From: an uncultured beta proteobacterium
GTDB lineage: Bacteria > Pseudomonadota > Gammaproteobacteria > Burkholderiales > Burkholderiaceae_C
Reading direction: 5' to 3'
Assembly: GCA_903958915.1 (NCBI GenBank)
Contig: CAJBVC010000587.1
Location: forward strand, 1 to 8,452
Length of the DNA: 8,452 bases
Below are positions 2,502 to 8,388 of the stretch, piece by piece. The notes below the pieces were generated by a model. It searched no databases, was not told where the DNA came from, and saw nothing but the letters and a program-made list of their open reading frames with translations. Positions within the stretch are counted from its first letter, which is position 1, and each line of letters begins with the position of its first letter. The position numbers were made by a program, and so were the translations under genes.

Positions 2502-2654
2502 ATGAAAACACTCGTAGCTCTGACCATGGTTCTATTTTTCCTGGTGTCCTGTGGTGGAGACACTGACAGCCCTTCGGCCAACACCCGCCCAACAGCGACG
2601 AGCAATAAAGAACCAGTATTCGAGACACCACCTTCGCCGGGAGTCAACCGATGA
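2502..2654 (+). CDS. Small lipoprotein with PVFETPPSPG tail (lipoprotein A)
   Basis: This encodes 50 residues: a short charged start (MK), a hydrophobic stretch of about 12 residues, and a lipobox L-V-S-C17 followed by GGD, as expected for signal peptidase II processing and lipidation. The mature part is only about 34 residues, Ser/Thr/Pro/Asn-rich and apparently unstructured, ending in PVFETPPSPG plus VNR. ATG 2502 is preferred over TTG 2472 because it puts the lipobox at normal distance from the start; the ribosome site is weak (GAAAG at 2492-2496). The stop TGA overlaps an ATG (ATGA, 2651-2654) in the frame of the next gene, so translational coupling is possible. A second lipoprotein of the same size and tail lies on the - strand at 5713-5859. 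No family is recognised; a role as a membrane-anchored partner of a neighbouring secreted protein is inference. Confidence 0.75.
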   Translation: MKTLVALTMVLFFLVSCGGDTDSPSANTRPTATSNKEPVFETPPSPGVNR

Positions 2655-2734
2655 GCCTTAAGTGTCTTGCTGAAACCCTCGCACTTATCCGGTCCGCCGT
2701 GCAGACGCTCAGAACTTTTTCAGGGAGAACAAAA

Positions 2735-3361
2735 ATGTCGACTTTTCCAGAATCACCTAGCTTCCCGAACGTTAATGTCACCGTGGCGCCCATCGTTGCG
2801 GGTTACCCTGTCGTCCGAAATGGGGCGAGTACAGCAGCTACGGTTTCTCGTAGCTTGCTGCAATACGTTGCGCTGGCTTGCCAACTGGTTGGGGCAGTCG
2901 TGGCGCCCTTAGCTGTCGCCGCTACGGTGCCTTTTGAGCCTCCTCCCGCCCCGGGTGCAGCAGTGTCCTATGACGGCATCTACCAGTGGTCTACCGGGCA
3001 GTACTTGTCGCTGCATCAGGATGAAGGCAACATGATCGCGACCATTTATTTCAACAAAGATGGGAACTTTACGTTTTACACGCCAGACGGCAAGGCAATG
3101 CTTCCTGTTCCGCAACTCGATATATTTGACCTGTTGAGTGGTCCAGTGACTGGCCGGACAGCCAAGATATCCGGCACGAGATTTCACAGAGCTTGCAACG
3201 TTAGCTATGACTTTGCGTTCAATAGCGATGCCAGCATAACCGTCACCAGAACTGCAGTAAGCAACAGTGCCGCTGCCAATGCTGCGGGTATATCCTGTAG
3301 CACTACCATCGGTGCAGAGCCTATCACCCTGACTGTGCCCATCATTCGCTTTAACCAGTAG
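2735..3361 (+). CDS. Exported or membrane-anchored protein of unknown function, 208 aa
   Basis: ATG 2735 is chosen because AGGGAG at 2722-2727 gives a strong ribosome site with a 7-base spacer. The same frame is open back to an ATG at 2651 that overlaps the lipoprotein stop, giving 236 residues, so a coupled longer form is possible. From 2735, residues 1-40 are polar, 41-63 are hydrophobic and end in AVAAT (membrane anchor or long signal peptide), and 65-74 read VPFEPPPAPG, resembling the PVFETPPSPG tail of the lipoprotein just upstream. The remaining 130 or so residues look like a compact beta domain (YDGIYQWSTGQYLSLHQDEG, then MIATIYFN and DGNFTFYTPDG) with two Cys that could pair. The W-x-x-x-Q-Y-L-S-L-H-Q pattern faintly recalls the beta-barrel 'GWGxxxxxQG' domains of exported proteobacterial proteins, but this is weak. 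Function unknown. Confidence 0.72.
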   Translation: MSTFPESPSFPNVNVTVAPIVAGYPVVRNGASTAATVSRSLLQYVALACQLVGAVVAPLAVAATVPFEPPPAPGAAVSYDGIYQWSTGQYLSLHQDEGNMIATIYFNKDGNFTFYTPDGKAMLPVPQLDIFDLLSGPVTGRTAKISGTRFHRACNVSYDFAFNSDASITVTRTAVSNSAAANAAGISCSTTIGAEPITLTVPIIRFNQ

Positions 3362-3643
3362 TTCATCAATCCTGCCACTTGACCACTGGTCCCACAACTC
3401 TCTCCAGATCGGAGACAAGTGCCTTTCGGTACAACAGATGGTTGAGCGGGGAAGTTTAGCAATTGTTCGACTAATGGACGCTAACATTCAATAGCAGCGT
3501 GCTGCCAGACACATAGATTCCGCAGTCTAGCGTTGTATCGGGTTCGCCGCAGAACCCCAGCAGGTGGTGCCAGTCGCCACATCAACACACCTCTGCGCAC
3601 TGATGTTCCGGCCTTGTCATAGACAGTTGCACCAGATACAACT

Positions 3644-3698
3644 TTTTGAAACTGCGATTGCCAGTGGCAAGTGCTATTTCTAACGCTTTGGCGCATTT
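3644..3698 (+). repeat. Dispersed direct repeat, copy 1
   Basis: The core at 3663-3693 reads AGTGGCAAGTG, two variable bases, ATTTCTAACGCT, then TTGGCG. It matches 6057-6088 at 29 of 31 positions with one inserted C in the other copy. Looser similarity extends about 20 bases to the left of the core in both. Both copies have the same orientation and lie on opposite sides of the - strand two-gene operon. On the - strand each copy can be read as A-L-E-I-x-L-A-T. The element class is not recognised. Confidence 0.6.
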
Positions 3699-3784
3699 CC
3701 GTTGGAATTGGCAACTTGATTGCGATAAGCACAGCCCAAAGCGGGGGCGCTGGGTGTCACTCATAGGCTGTTGTGGGGAAGTGA

Positions 3785-3928
3785 ATGCTGATGGATGAAG
3801 CGTCTATTTACGGGACGGTGTCGTGTGGACACGACGCTGAAATCTCACGTAATCGTATCGCTGACACCCAACGCTACGTTGACTGTAATGACCAAATGCT
3901 TCGCAACGCTGTAGAACTGATTGATTGA
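3785..3928 (+). CDS. Possible small protein, 47 aa (hypothetical)
   Basis: ATG 3785 directly follows an in-frame stop (TGA 3782-3784) and is preceded by GGGGAAG, a passable ribosome site about 4 bases away. The predicted product is charged and mixed rather than low-complexity, with two Cys and a plausible amphipathic C-terminal helix (ADTQRYVDCNDQMLRNAVEL). There is no signal peptide and I recognise no family. It contains a perfect GTCGTGT/ACACGAC inverted repeat, which could mean that the DNA is structural rather than coding. It converges with the - strand gene ending at 4014. Chance cannot be excluded for an ORF of this size. Confidence 0.25.
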   Translation: MLMDEASIYGTVSCGHDAEISRNRIADTQRYVDCNDQMLRNAVELID

Positions 3929-3983
3929 TGTGAGTGGGCGTTCCGTTGCTAGACGATGGCCCAGCAGAACAGGACTAAGAATT

Positions 3984-4005
3984 AACTCCTCGCTCTCCTG
4001 GAGTT
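3984..4005 (-). terminator. Weak hairpin after the W-repeat/FG-GAP gene
   Basis: On the - strand, just past the TAA at 4014-4016, AACTCC and GGAGTT form a 6-bp perfect inverted repeat with a 10-base loop, followed by TTAATTCTT rather than a clean T-run. It may be a poor intrinsic terminator or chance. Confidence 0.25.
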
Positions 4006-4013
4006 GATTTAAA

Positions 4014-5699
4014 TTATGGAATTGGAATAGATATTTGATAATTTGCATCCATTGGCACCAGACTGTCTTTATACAAAACGATAAAATCAAACCAAGTACT
4101 CGAATTGTCTGCGGAATATGATCCATTATGTGTATATAGAACGGATGCAATACCGCTTGTCAGTTCGTATTTTTCAATTTGCACACCAACATATTGATCT
4201 TGAATATGCAGCATATAAACTGCATTCTTCTTAACAACTATATCCAATGGAGTAACATTTTTCATTACTGTTGTCATGGATAGTTTGCTAATGTCTGAGT
4301 AGTGATTGGTCTTGTCATTATAATAAAATGTTGGCGCAATAGATGCTTGCGGAAATTTGTCGAAATAAACCAATCCACCAACCCACAAATCATATTGACC
4401 AATTTGTTTTACATCTATAAATTCTAAAGAATAAATTCCCTTGCCAATAACACTCTGTGGCATCCTGGTCTTGTCTTCTGTGAAAGTTCCGTCCTTTTTA
4501 TTTACGAGATAAAAAGGAGATTGACGAATCGATGTGTCTGTGTAAATAATATCTGAATACCCATTTCCATTCACGTCTGCAACACTACCGCCGTGAGCAT
4601 ATGCAGTGGTAGGTAGCGCGACATTCTCATAGGTGCCATCAGCTTGGCTCATTAATACTCGCTGCTGTTCTCCTGGATATGGTGGAGAATCATAGCCATG
4701 ACAAGCCAAGATAACATCTGGTTTGCCATCGCCGTTTAAATCAGCAACCATTGCCTTACGCGGATGAATGCAGCCTGTGTTATTTGTGAGAAGTAGGGTT
4801 GTAATATCTATCCATTGTCCATTTACTTGCTTAAGGAAATATATGTGGCCCAGTATTGCTTTGTCCAGCGGAAGTGAATTGTTATATTCCAGTGTGTTTA
4901 CAACTACGGTGTAGCTTCCGTCTTGCAAAAAGTCTGCAAATGCTCGAGCATTGCCACTCTTGTCATTTGGCATTTTCTGCGGTCCCAGCGCATTCCCAGC
5001 AGCCATCTTATTCTCATGCGATGAACGCAAAACTGGGATTGGCGTTACTACCTTCGCAGCATCGCCCTTTACCCAAAATCCTTTGCCCACACCACTAACA
5101 CTTCCCGTAATTGGCCCATACTTATTCGCAGTTTGATAACTGGACAACGTCCCATCCATCATCAGCGCTGGCGCATAGAAGTTCCATTTCATACCAGCCC
5201 ACTGCCAAACAGACGTAACATCGACGACTTTCTTTGAGATATGTGAAAACATTTCCACACTAACTGTCGAACTGTCAGCCGTCCCTCCACTGGCAACTAA
5301 ATTCCAACCCGCACCCAGTTTTGGGGAAATGACACCCAAGCCAGTCTGCGGTCCGTAGTCAGTCGCAGTCTTTGCGTTTACCCAATACCCCTCGCCACCT
5401 TCAATAGTTGTCAGCAGTCCAAATCCATTGCTCGATATGTAGGATTGAAGTTCAGCCGTAGACAGCGATGGTGCGTAGAACATCCACCTATTTCCAGTGT
5501 TGTCCCATTTCCAAACAGATGTGACTTTGTTGGTGTCGCCAAACATCGTTGCGATGTTTATGGATTTGTCGACGCTGTTGCCAAGCAAGTTCCAGCCTTG
5601 CGTTGTCTGTAATTGATAGGACTGCTGAACTTGGGCTGTTGCCGTAGTGAAAGCAAACAACATTCCCCACCACAGCAATACAGACCTAGTGGTCGTCAT
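4014..5699 (-). CDS. Secreted W-repeat protein with FG-GAP/VCBS-type repeats
   Basis: This encodes 561 residues from ATG 5699. The frame extends upstream, but that part overlaps the lipoprotein gene and reads as low-complexity His/Gln, whereas ATG 5699 gives a clean signal peptide (residues 1-22, cut after TATA). Two W-repeats follow, at about 33-113 (GWNLLGNS, SVWKWD, RWMFYAPSLS, GGEGYWVNAK) and 128-215 (GWNLVASGG, SVWQWA, KWNFYAPAL, GKGFWVKGD). The C-terminal part holds calcium-binding FG-GAP/VCBS loops at D320-LNGDGKP-D328 and D375-VNGNGYS-D383, with probable degenerate blades around them, suggesting a beta-propeller. Such propellers usually bind ligands or partners at the cell surface; the ligand here is unknown. 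The ribosome site is weak (GGCGGG) and the start is 13 bases after the lipoprotein stop, which suggests coupled translation. By eye, the C-terminal coding part is clearly richer in A+T than the N-terminal part. Confidence 0.9.
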   Translation of the reverse strand: MTTTRSVLLWWGMLFAFTTATAQVQQSYQLQTTQGWNLLGNSVDKSINIATMFGDTNKVTSVWKWDNTGNRWMFYAPSLSTAELQSYISSNGFGLLTTIEGGEGYWVNAKTATDYGPQTGLGVISPKLGAGWNLVASGGTADSSTVSVEMFSHISKKVVDVTSVWQWAGMKWNFYAPALMMDGTLSSYQTANKYGPITGSVSGVGKGFWVKGDAAKVVTPIPVLRSSHENKMAAGNALGPQKMPNDKSGNARAFADFLQDGSYTVVVNTLEYNNSLPLDKAILGHIYFLKQVNGQWIDITTLLLTNNTGCIHPRKAMVADLNGDGKPDVILACHGYDSPPYPGEQQRVLMSQADGTYENVALPTTAYAHGGSVADVNGNGYSDIIYTDTSIRQSPFYLVNKKDGTFTEDKTRMPQSVIGKGIYSLEFIDVKQIGQYDLWVGGLVYFDKFPQASIAPTFYYNDKTNHYSDISKLSMTTVMKNVTPLDIVVKKNAVYMLHIQDQYVGVQIEKYELTSGIASVLYTHNGSYSADNSSTWFDFIVLYKDSLVPMDANYQISIPIP

Positions 5700-5712
5700 A
5701 ACCCGCCCCGCT

Positions 5713-5859
5713 TCACTTTGGCGCTGGTGGTGTTTCAAACACTGGTGCTGATGCAGAGGGTGTTGGTGCTGCTGCTGTGGTCTTGTCAGTCGCACTCGAT
5801 GTGCCACCACCACATGCTGTGATCAGTGCAGCCAAACAGCAATAGGCGACAAGTCTCAT
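5713..5859 (-). CDS. Small lipoprotein with PVFETPPAP tail (lipoprotein B)
   Basis: This encodes 48 residues from ATG 5859, or 50 from ATG 5865. The ribosome site AAGGGG touches ATG 5865 with no spacer but sits 6 bases before ATG 5859, so the inner start is preferred. The sequence begins MRLVAYCCLAALITAC: positive residue, hydrophobic core and lipobox I-T-A-C, then GGGTSS. The mature tail is about 33 residues, rich in Ala/Thr/Pro/Ser, ending PVFETPPAPK. Size, lipobox-CGG context and tail match lipoprotein A on the + strand, though the middle parts do not align. It is the first gene of a two-gene operon with the W-repeat/FG-GAP protein, whose start is 13 bases downstream. It is probably an envelope-anchored partner or docking peptide for that protein (inference). 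It is too short for most gene finders and likely to be missed. Confidence 0.78.
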   Translation of the reverse strand: MRLVAYCCLAALITACGGGTSSATDKTTAAAPTPSASAPVFETPPAPK

Positions 5860-5865
5860 ATCCAT

Positions 5866-6117: not shown

Positions 6118-6291
6118 TTGCCACTGGCTGGGGCTGCGAAGGCTTCGTCTATCAAGAAGTGTGAGGCGGACTCCAAGGCTACATCAGGATGTGCGGACAA
6201 AGCCATCGATAAGAACGGAACGCCTCTTGCAGGTGCTGCGAAGAACTCTTTCATGAAGAAGTGCGAGGCTGATGCCAAGGGTGGCAAGTAG
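6118..6291 (+). pseudogene. Headless remnant of a PsiF-like repeat protein
   Basis: The frame from 6118 to TAG 6289-6291 encodes 57 residues containing two copies of a short Lys/Cys repeat: PLAGAAKASSIKKCEAD and PLAGAAKNSFMKKCEAD, the second followed by AKGGK and the stop. This resembles small periplasmic proteins with PsiF-type repeats (a K-x-F-M-x-x-C core), which normally have an N-terminal signal peptide. Here a TAG (6115-6117) lies directly upstream, only TTG is available as a start, and neither a ribosome site nor a signal peptide is present in any frame just upstream. The simplest reading is a gene that lost its 5' end. The break lies within about 30 bases of dispersed-repeat copy 2, so a rearrangement there may have removed it. 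The PsiF assignment is by motif resemblance. Confidence 0.55.
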
Positions 6292-6454: not shown

Positions 6455-7456
6455 ATGCAGTTCAAACCCAGCAGCTTTTTTCTGGCAATTGGTCTCGCCT
6501 GCGCGACATTCTCCACAGGAGTTTTTGCTGGGTTAGATGAAGGCATCACCGCTTACGGGAATAAAGACTACGCAGCAGCCTTGCGAGAACTCAAGCCGCT
6601 TGCGCAAAAGGGAGATGCCGGTGCGCAGTACATGCTCGGGCAGATGTATGCTCTTGGGCAGGCTGTTCCTCAGGATGCAAAGGAAGCCGCGAAGTGGCTG
6701 CGCTTGGCAGCCGAACAGGGCTTAAGGCTTGCCCAATACAACCTTGGTGCGATGTACGACAGTGGTCAAGGTGTTCAGCAGGACAGCAAAGAAGCCTTTA
6801 AGTGGTACCGCATGTCCGCGGAGCAGGGGTATGCCTCAGCCCAGAATAACCTCGGTGCGATGTACGACGGTGGTCAAGGCGTTCCAAAGGACATCAAAGA
6901 AGCCATCAAGTGGTTTCGCTTGGCTGCCGACCAAGGTGATGCTTCGGCACAACTCAACCTCGCTGCGAGATACGCTAACGGGCAAGGACTACCGCTAGAT
7001 TACAAAGAGGCAGCGAAGTGGTACCGCTTGGCAGCCGATCAAGGCTTAGCACCCAGCCAATACGGACTGGGCCTTCTCTACGCATCGGGTCAAGGCGTAT
7101 CAGTGAACTACAAGGAAGCGGTAAAGTGGTTCCGCATGGCGGCTGAGCAACGTCATGCAGCTGCTCAGAACAACCTCGGTGCGATGTTTGCCTTGGGCCA
7201 AGGTATGCCAGCAAGCCGGGTTGTCGCCCATGCTCTGTACTCAGTGTCTGGCACCAACGACCCTTCTGGCAATAACAGAGCGTCGGCAAACGCCAAGGCG
7301 TTGGCTCCATCCATGTCAGCTAAAGAGTTGGAAGCATCTCAAGCCCTGATTCGAGAGTTAAGCAAGCCCGGCAACTTTCTCCAAGCGCTTGACCAATACA
7401 CCAGCAAACCTACCGTGAAGGAAACTGCCTCCACGGCAGCACCACCTAAGAAATAG
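6455..7456 (+). CDS. Periplasmic Sel1-repeat (SLR) protein
   Basis: This encodes 333 residues. A signal peptide covers residues 1-25, with cleavage after GVFA. After a lead-in helix pair (GITAYGNKDYAAALRELKPL), five full 36-residue Sel1-like repeats run from about 54 to 233, each with the pattern AQxxLGxMYxxGQGVxxDxKEAxKWxRxAAxQG, and a sixth, shortened one ends near 262 (ASRVVAHALYSVS). A helical, Ala/Ser-rich C-terminal tail follows, ending in PPKK. Sel1 repeats form an alpha-solenoid used for protein-protein contact; exported members often act in envelope processes, but the partner here is unknown. Repeats 2, 3 and 6 are very alike at the DNA level (NNLGAM-type segments), suggesting expansion by duplication. 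It stands alone: no gene on the same strand is close enough to form an operon. The start is certain from signal peptide and ribosome site. Confidence 0.95.
   Translation: MQFKPSSFFLAIGLACATFSTGVFAGLDEGITAYGNKDYAAALRELKPLAQKGDAGAQYMLGQMYALGQAVPQDAKEAAKWLRLAAEQGLRLAQYNLGAMYDSGQGVQQDSKEAFKWYRMSAEQGYASAQNNLGAMYDGGQGVPKDIKEAIKWFRLAADQGDASAQLNLAARYANGQGLPLDYKEAAKWYRLAADQGLAPSQYGLGLLYASGQGVSVNYKEAVKWFRMAAEQRHAAAQNNLGAMFALGQGMPASRVVAHALYSVSGTNDPSGNNRASANAKALAPSMSAKELEASQALIRELSKPGNFLQALDQYTSKPTVKETASTAAPPKK
6614..7240 (+). repeat. Tandem 108-bp coding repeats of the Sel1 protein
   Basis: Six units of 36 codons each (the last shortened). CTCGGTGCGATG or a near copy recurs in several units, for example near 6742, 6850 and 7180. 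Similar DNA between units makes unit gain or loss by recombination plausible. Confidence 0.85.
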
Positions 7457-7827: not shown

Positions 7828-8125
7828 GTGCCGTGCCAGAATGACCAGCTGAAGTACTGGTTGCTGCTTGCGCTGATGTTGACCCTGACTCAAGTACCTG
7901 TGTGGGCTGCTCGCAAGCGCAGCCAGAGCGCCGTAGTGGACTTCAAGAAGCAGCATCCCTGTCCTGCTACTGGTTCACCCAAAAGGGCCGTGCAAGGGCT
8001 ACGTGATTGACCACATCAAGCCTCCAGCCTGCAACGGTGCGGACGCACCGAGCAATATGCAATGGCAGACGACTGCTGAGGCTAAAGCCAAAGACAAGTG
8101 GGAGCGAAAGGAATGTGGGAAGTAG
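7828..8125 (+). pseudogene. Secreted HNH endonuclease with a +1 frameshift
   Basis: From GTG 7828 the frame gives a signal-peptide-like start (hydrophobic LLLALMLTLTQVPVWAA), then FKKQHPCPATGS up to 7977, after which it runs out of register and stops at 8008-8010. Dropping one C from the CCC at 7978-7980 restores a continuous 98-residue product: PKGPCKGYVIDHIKPPACNG, then ADAPSNMQWQT and KAKDKWERKEC. This is the small exported HNH nuclease family, with D61-H62 and N76 of the beta-beta-alpha metal site and four conserved-looking Cys (45, 55, 68, 96). Family length and residue spacing across the break agree exactly with a one-base insertion, so the damage is recent, or it is a sequencing error, or there is ribosomal slippage at CCCAAAA. 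The start is uncertain because no good ribosome site precedes GTG 7828. Substrate and role are unknown; nicking of extracellular or incoming DNA is a guess. Confidence 0.8.
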
Positions 8126-8312: not shown

Positions 8313-8388
8313 TGGTGGGACGTGCGGGGGTCGAACCCACGACAAACGGATTAAAAGTCCGCTGCTCTACCAACTGAGCTAACGTCCC
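8313..8388 (-). tRNA. tRNA-Lys (anticodon UUU), CCA encoded
   Basis: On the - strand the 76 bases run from GGGACGT (5' acceptor arm) to ACGTCCC plus A plus CCA; the acceptor arms pair fully over 7 bp. The D-arm AGCTCAGTTGGTAGAGC, the anticodon arm CGGAC-TTTTAAT-CCG with anticodon TTT (Lys), and the T-arm with GGTTCGACC are all standard. It decodes AAA and AAG. No second tRNA is seen beside it within the window. tRNA genes are common integration sites for mobile elements, which fits the broken genes to its left. Confidence 0.97.

Follow-up and report, generated by a model that had tools for sequence, protein, structure and literature searches.

A FExPPxPG tail on tiny predicted lipoproteins as a candidate docking peptide for W-repeat proteins

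Why should two lipoproteins of about 50 residues, encoded on opposite strands of the same stretch of DNA, end in nearly the same ten residues, and why should each lie beside a gene for a protein with a W-repeat domain? The question is raised by the 8,452-nucleotide stretch analysed here (the window), which comes from an uncultured betaproteobacterium (contig CAJBVC010000587.1, assembly GCA_903958915.1) and encodes the lipoproteins that we call A and B. Our analysis indicates that the tail, of general form FExPPxPG, is not peculiar to the lipoprotein and is common to the adjoining predicted exported proteins, a point overlooked in an earlier sequence-only reading of the window. Our leading, tentative proposal is that this tail serves as a docking peptide: exported proteins encoded alongside would be tethered by it at the outer membrane, and its likeliest receptor would be the W-repeat domain.

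Lipoproteins A and B and their family

The window features at issue are these (L, G and C numbers below are our own handles for loci, genomes and contigs):
2502-2654, + strand: tiny predicted lipoprotein A, 50 aa, with signal peptide, lipobox LVSC, CGG, spacer and tail
2613-2642, + strand: tail tag of A, PVFETPPSPG
5713-5859, - strand: tiny predicted lipoprotein B, 48 aa, with lipobox ITAC and CGGG
5716-5745, - strand: tail tag of B, PVFETPPAPK
3-2429, + strand: W-repeat protein with HEFFH, a putative metallopeptidase; its 5' end lies beyond the contig
3-368, + strand: W-repeat domain of this peptidase, partial (E 1.8e-47)
4014-5699, - strand: W-repeat/FG-GAP protein directly behind B (FG-GAP_3, E 1.1e-15)
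5064-5618, - strand: W-repeat domain of the B operon (E 3.2e-65)

Both small open reading frames are present as the sequence-only reading had described them, about 50 residues long, with a lipobox followed by CGG and an end containing PVFETPP, and their places in the window are likewise confirmed: the start of A comes 72 bases downstream of the stop codon of the W-repeat peptidase gene, and B lies directly before the W-repeat/FG-GAP gene, with 13 bases from its stop to the ATG of that gene on the same strand. A and B each have a basic N-terminus, a hydrophobic stretch and a lipobox Cys within about 20 residues (...FLVSC17 in A, ...LITAC16 in B), after which A reads CGGDTD and B CGGGTS; their C-terminal ends are PVFETPPSPGVNR and PVFETPPAPK. 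The same reading had held that the middles of the two proteins do not align, which was not borne out, as they align loosely as a G/S/T/N-rich spacer. Against Pfam, neither A nor B had a match at E up to 10, and NCBIfam gave only weak matches, far below cut-off.

Within the 4.5 Mb assembly that contains the window, DNA matching PVFE[TPSA]PP is present at two places, both in the window, and the DNA pattern for PVFETPP was absent from 100 other genomes, relatives being recovered only by profile. Their recovery indicates that the shared tail is no coincidence. The profile was built from A, B and two relatives, both from genome G030, and was used in a six-frame search of 103 genomes of the genus, among which G000 and G030 are the seed genomes. 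Above 40 bits it returned the four seeds and three further matches (G054:C136, 50.7 bits; G120:C67, 43.9 bits; G000:C228, 42.3 bits). The next matches, at 29 bits or less, fell mostly within longer frames; four were looked at (L088-L091), and matches of this rank were taken as generic lipoprotein starts. In the protein database the profile found 11 proteins at E up to 1, ten of them unnamed and one called 'LpoB' by its source, in keeping with the earlier suggestion that such small genes may go unannotated. A named genome collection gave seven loci, the new ones being L125-L128, from uncultured betaproteobacteria and a Rhodoferax sp.; L124 was taken as the same record as L052 (G030 contig 225), and the partial matches L129 and L130, the latter from Flavobacterium, were left out of the analysis. 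No full-length lipoprotein was found at E up to 1e-5 in 398 other genomes of the order, where G143, of another genus, matches the profile at positions 1-31 only, and a plasmid collection searched with P0004 gave no match. Full-length members were thus seen only in this genus and its uncultured relatives. A and B are members of an unclassified family of predicted lipoproteins of about 48 residues.

Is it the tail itself that is conserved? In a 14-row alignment of the family its F, its E and three P are invariant, so that the conservation claimed earlier is real, but the exact string is not what is kept: the usual form is [PST][AV]FE[ATP]PP[TS]PG rather than PVFETPP. For 12 members DNA was at hand (A, B, L052, L053, L085, L086, L087, the first and third members at L125, L126, L127 and L128). 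Their ratio of nonsynonymous to synonymous differences (pN/pS) is 0.12 over the seven tail codons of the core FExPPxP, a value biased downwards because members were found partly via their tails, as against 0.85 over the eight codons before the tail, 0.47 over the nine codons from the Cys and 0.71 over the last 12 codons of the signal peptide; pS is 0.62-0.74 across all regions. Within the tail, codon differences amount to 0.21, 0.05 and 0.61 at positions 1, 2 and 3, which argues that its residues, and not its DNA, have been kept.

The tag on neighbouring exported proteins

The gene downstream of the lipoprotein gene carries the same tag in eight of the 12 cases. By sequence, the tag is shown to stand at the exposed end of most of the adjoining predicted exported proteins, which belong to at least four unrelated types. 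Behind A, L126, L127 and L128 lie YDG barrel proteins with the tag behind the signal peptide (for example VFEPPPSPGAASFDGIYQW). The next genes of L052 and L053 begin MPS[DE]FELPPSPGG, with an RTX repeat identified by Pfam in that of L052, and that of L086 begins MSIFDPPPSPG and has Big_12 and Big_5 domains (Ig-like). For the first lipoprotein of L125 the next gene encodes a second lipoprotein, with C-terminus PAFQTPPSPF, for which a DUF4214-like identity was considered and received no support from Pfam; for the third, the contig end is too near for the tag of the next gene to be scored. Genome G123 lacks a lipoprotein member; two of its genes, each with a GTG start preceded by GGGAG, begin MPAFDSPPSPG and MATFDPPPTPG, and both lie within about 3 kb of W-repeat genes. 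Members L085 and L087 form a divergent subfamily whose next genes (L085 3523-5079, + strand; L087 8491-10047, + strand) are 95% identical and which, from their resemblance to WS/DGAT proteins, we take to be acyltransferase-like.

In the window, the neighbour concerned has the following features:
2735-3361, + strand: YDG barrel protein, 208 aa, with an N-terminal hydrophobic segment; AGGGAG, ribosome-binding-like, precedes 2735
2933-2955, + strand: tag FEPPPAPG between the signal peptide and the YDG barrel, in the gene after A

Its frame also extends without interruption back to an ATG at 2651, which overlaps the stop of A, and at L126 and L127 the lipoprotein stop and the start of the YDG gene overlap as well (ATGA). 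The YDG barrels are putatively avidin- or calycin-like. Against the Inh protease inhibitor family (PF02974) the YDG protein scored 13.4 bits, under the cut-off of 25. Since the putative HEFFH peptidase (3-2429, + strand) precedes a barrel with this faint Inh match, a peptidase-inhibitor pair is conceivable. Among 36 YDG homologues, by our reading, FEPPPxPG stands before the barrel in 12 and a near variant in two, 12 have a signal peptide and no tag, eight have another architecture and two are truncated; the tag thus behaves as an optional module. The sequence-only reading had suggested a docking peptide or a chaperone for an exported partner. That the tag is common to the lipoprotein and its neighbours makes a common receptor likelier than a single-partner chaperone.

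The W-repeat domain and other candidate partners

Had no further tail lipoproteins been found adjoining W-repeat or similar secreted genes, the sequence-only reading would by its own terms have fallen; such members do exist. An intact W gene is directly adjacent in six of the 12 cases (A, B, the first member at L125, L052, L086 and L126), upstream of the lipoprotein gene in all except B, where it is downstream. The third member at L125 lies about 1 kb behind the W gene of the first, in the same cluster; L053 has a W C-terminal remnant upstream and an intact W gene about 1 kb off on the other strand, and L128 has only the last 85 residues of a W-peptidase upstream. In G000, downstream of a further W gene (L037), the beginning of a lipoprotein can be read as far as CGGG, where it breaks off. 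The peptidase of the window scored 42 bits against NCBIfam NF045524, under the cut-off of 140, and has an orthologue in L126 (77% identity over 817 residues).

Remnants of the W-domain C-terminus precede other genes at L053 (1881-2024, - strand) and L125 (5374-5448, + strand) and look as if upstream genes had been swapped by recombination inside the W domain. Contig 713 of G000 (L039) encodes another protein, whose W domain is almost the same as the one in the peptidase of the window.

What kind of domain is this? Sixteen aligned W domains share 24 invariant columns, ten of which are Trp. The structural model of the domain has a mean predicted local distance difference test score (pLDDT) of 96, and its modelled fold has no clear structural match, which does not demonstrate a new fold; the W proteins searched had no Pfam match to the domain. 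A database search at E up to 1e-10 gave 333 proteins with the domain. Of the 120 that we retrieved, 75 have their C-terminus no more than 12 residues after the last W motif, and the partner domains are very diverse. None of the 120 has the tag within 70 residues of its start or 20 of its end; tag and W domain therefore meet, if at all, in trans.

Across genomes, tag and W domain tend to occur together. The domain is present in eight of the 103 genomes of the genus, and the four genomes with lipoproteins above 40 bits, or five with the tag when G123 is included, all fall within these eight. When the seed genomes are left out, all three tag genomes lie within the six W genomes of 101 (P 1.2e-4 if genomes are independent). 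The pattern F[DE]xPPxPG matches 42 times in the 103 genomes, compared with 24 for a reversed control, and 13 of the 42 are in W genomes, compared with two of the 24. The remaining 29 lie outside W genomes, and in the 25 of these that were read (two in G118 and one each in G119 and G142 were left out) none, by our reading, stood behind a signal peptide or ended a small lipoprotein. A looser motif, searched in 27 loci, mostly W loci, recovered the known tags and one unrelated match. W domains were found in two of the 398 other genomes of the order, G226 and G169. In G226, which belongs to another family, the pattern matches only once in the whole genome, about 127 bases downstream of where a W domain ends, in a 74-residue protein with the tag just after the signal peptide (MLRYAIILSAFLVSASAMADNQPYFEPPPVPG...); a random match would fall no more than 300 bases downstream of any of six W genes with a probability of about 3e-4. 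Overall, the tag was seen in six of ten W genomes.

Three things shown by comparing the sequences underlie our proposal that the tail would dock exported proteins to the W-repeat domain: its residues are kept while its codons drift, it stands at the predicted exposed ends of neighbours, and it is linked to W genes both by genome and by place. Tag and W domain are often encoded side by side, but in different polypeptides. The W domain is the best candidate for the receptor because no other partner was seen in each of the genomes where the tag was found, and the lipoprotein is a plausible tether because it combines lipobox, spacer and tail. Its lipid-anchored Cys and G/S/T-rich spacer of about 20 residues would present the tail as a flexible proline-rich ligand, which the W domain, rich in invariant aromatics and often the C-terminal module of unrelated proteins, would bind. 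The tagged YDG barrels, RTX and Ig-like proteins would bind the same receptor, and enzymes and binding modules may thereby gather in one surface complex.

Several observations, besides the downward bias of the tail pN/pS, weigh against this proposal. The invariant aromatics may simply make up the domain's own core. Those genomes that have the W domain may be closely related, in which case the co-occurrence of domain and tag may count a single event, and with the seeds out the raw pattern falls in W genomes in six of 35 cases (P 0.08), which alone is unconvincing. At the sensitivity used, the W genomes G012, G015, G023 and G169 are without the tag, and so are the neighbours of most W genes in the window's own genome. 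The operon of B has its W-repeat/FG-GAP gene but no tag on this neighbour; the next genes of L085 and L087 are untagged; and the DNA available for L127, L085 and L087 contains no W domain, with W domains present elsewhere in the genomes of L085 and L087. The untagged W genomes and the three lipoproteins without a nearby W gene weaken the proposal. More doubtful is its wider form, in which FExPPxPG would tag protein ends in general and have the W domain as receptor, the two making up a cellulosome-like surface-assembly code written in a short linear motif, by which a dozen unrelated W proteins would be collected on lipid-anchored tails and likewise on barrels and adhesin-like proteins that bear the tag.

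In three genomes of three families, W genes lie in or beside a type II secretion-like or pseudopilus cluster (L181 in G226:C8; L184 in G169:C61; L044 and L048 in G015) with genes for a secretin with TPR, PilO/GspM-like proteins, pseudopilins, GspG and GspF. This cluster is a possible export route for W proteins. As a general partner a type II secretion-like machine was not borne out: the secretin lineage, scored at best E below 1e-100, is in two of the eight W genomes of the genus (G015 and G123; G000, which is incomplete, had no match) and in 20 non-W genomes.

Could the receptor then be something other than the W domain? It is rather doubtful that the tag directs docking or sorting to such a receptor, for instance an outer-membrane export or assembly machine, with the W genes as fellow clients. 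The tagged proteins do seem to differ in export route (lipoprotein signal, Sec signal or none), and W genes do adjoin secretin, pseudopilin, GspG or GspF genes in G226, G169 and G015; the distribution of the secretin lineage just given, however, tells against such a machine, and no other constant neighbour was seen. Unlikely, in our view, is that the lipoprotein serves as a maturation or release helper like LptM or the colicin lysis lipoproteins, its tail binding a client and the tags of neighbours mimicking it or competing with it. Its size would suit such a helper, as would a gene directly behind or before that of the client, with overlapping stop and start at L126 and L127, and LptM is reported to work through substrate mimicry (PMC10567701), but the clients would be wholly different (YDG, RTX, Ig-like, W/FG-GAP and acyltransferase-like proteins) while the tail is constant. 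We find it quite improbable that the tail is a functionless relic of an ancestral lipoprotein-domain fusion, split so that the linker was kept on both sides. The W remnants at L053 and L125 indicate that these loci do recombine, and the tag joins signal peptide to barrel in some YDG proteins and is absent from others; yet a relic would drift, whereas it is the residues of the tail and not its DNA that are kept, and splits would be needed with several unrelated domains. On these two grounds gene fission was set aside as the whole explanation. Least probable of all is a regulatory nascent peptide, in which PPxP by the stop codon would slow ribosomes and set translation of the next gene, the protein itself mattering little: proline runs do slow ribosomes, arrest peptides exist, the proline pairs are near the stop and the next gene is translationally coupled at L126 and L127, but the same tag occurs at mature N-termini and in the first codons of other proteins, and F and E show the same invariance as the prolines.

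If the tail does dock exported proteins to the W-repeat domain, this would account for the way in which some environmental bacteria organise a large number of secreted proteins on their surface, and would show that genes of about 50 codons, nearly all of them unnamed in the database, can carry linking logic. The tag also gives a handle on the W-repeat domain, itself without a Pfam family in the proteins searched.

Remaining features and comparison with known systems

The rest of the window holds the following:
6118-6291, + strand: 57-codon open reading frame that has two copies of the KKCEAD repeat and lacks a Pfam match at E up to 10
6455-7456, + strand: Sel1-repeat protein with a signal-peptide-like start and six repeats (PF08238, E 1.4e-56)
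7828-8125, + strand: open frames, DHIKPPACNGAD...NMQWQT, which may represent a broken HNH-type nuclease
8313-8388, - strand: tRNA-Lys (TTT) gene

Does a known system resemble these loci? Literature searches found no paper on such loci, nor any with one of the six exact tag or YDG strings that were looked for. In cohesin-dockerin cellulosomes a common end-module gathers enzymes, and WW and EVH1 domains read proline-rich ligands; tag and W domain would work in a similar way, the W domain having no Pfam match in the W proteins searched and no clear structural match. Colicin lysis (bacteriocin release) lipoproteins are encoded by a tiny gene directly behind that of a secreted protein, in likeness to the loci considered here; A and B differ in having no Pfam match at E up to 10 and no colicin adjoining. 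LptM is small, and a conserved CGxKGPL follows its lipobox; the corresponding residues of A and B, CGGDTD and CGGGTS, depart from it, and their conserved part is at the opposite end.

LptM, formerly YifL, is reported to be a lipoprotein that binds an outer-membrane complex and aids its maturation (PMC10567701). VirB7 of type IV secretion is a small lipoprotein of 30-45 residues when mature, a short disordered stretch of which docks to VirB9 (PMC3093366). A and B would resemble it as small lipoproteins that dock to a larger partner by a short stretch. In a large VirB7 this stretch belongs to the flexible N-terminal region and is not shared with neighbours, whereas in A and B it is the C-terminus that is conserved and that reappears on neighbours. 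No VirB9- or VirB10-like family was found in a search confined to seven proteins of the window and not extended to the genome's other contigs, and membership of A and B in VirB7 or LptM is not supported. VirB7 and LptM do illustrate that docking to a larger partner is within the reach of such lipoproteins (PMC3093366, PMC10567701).

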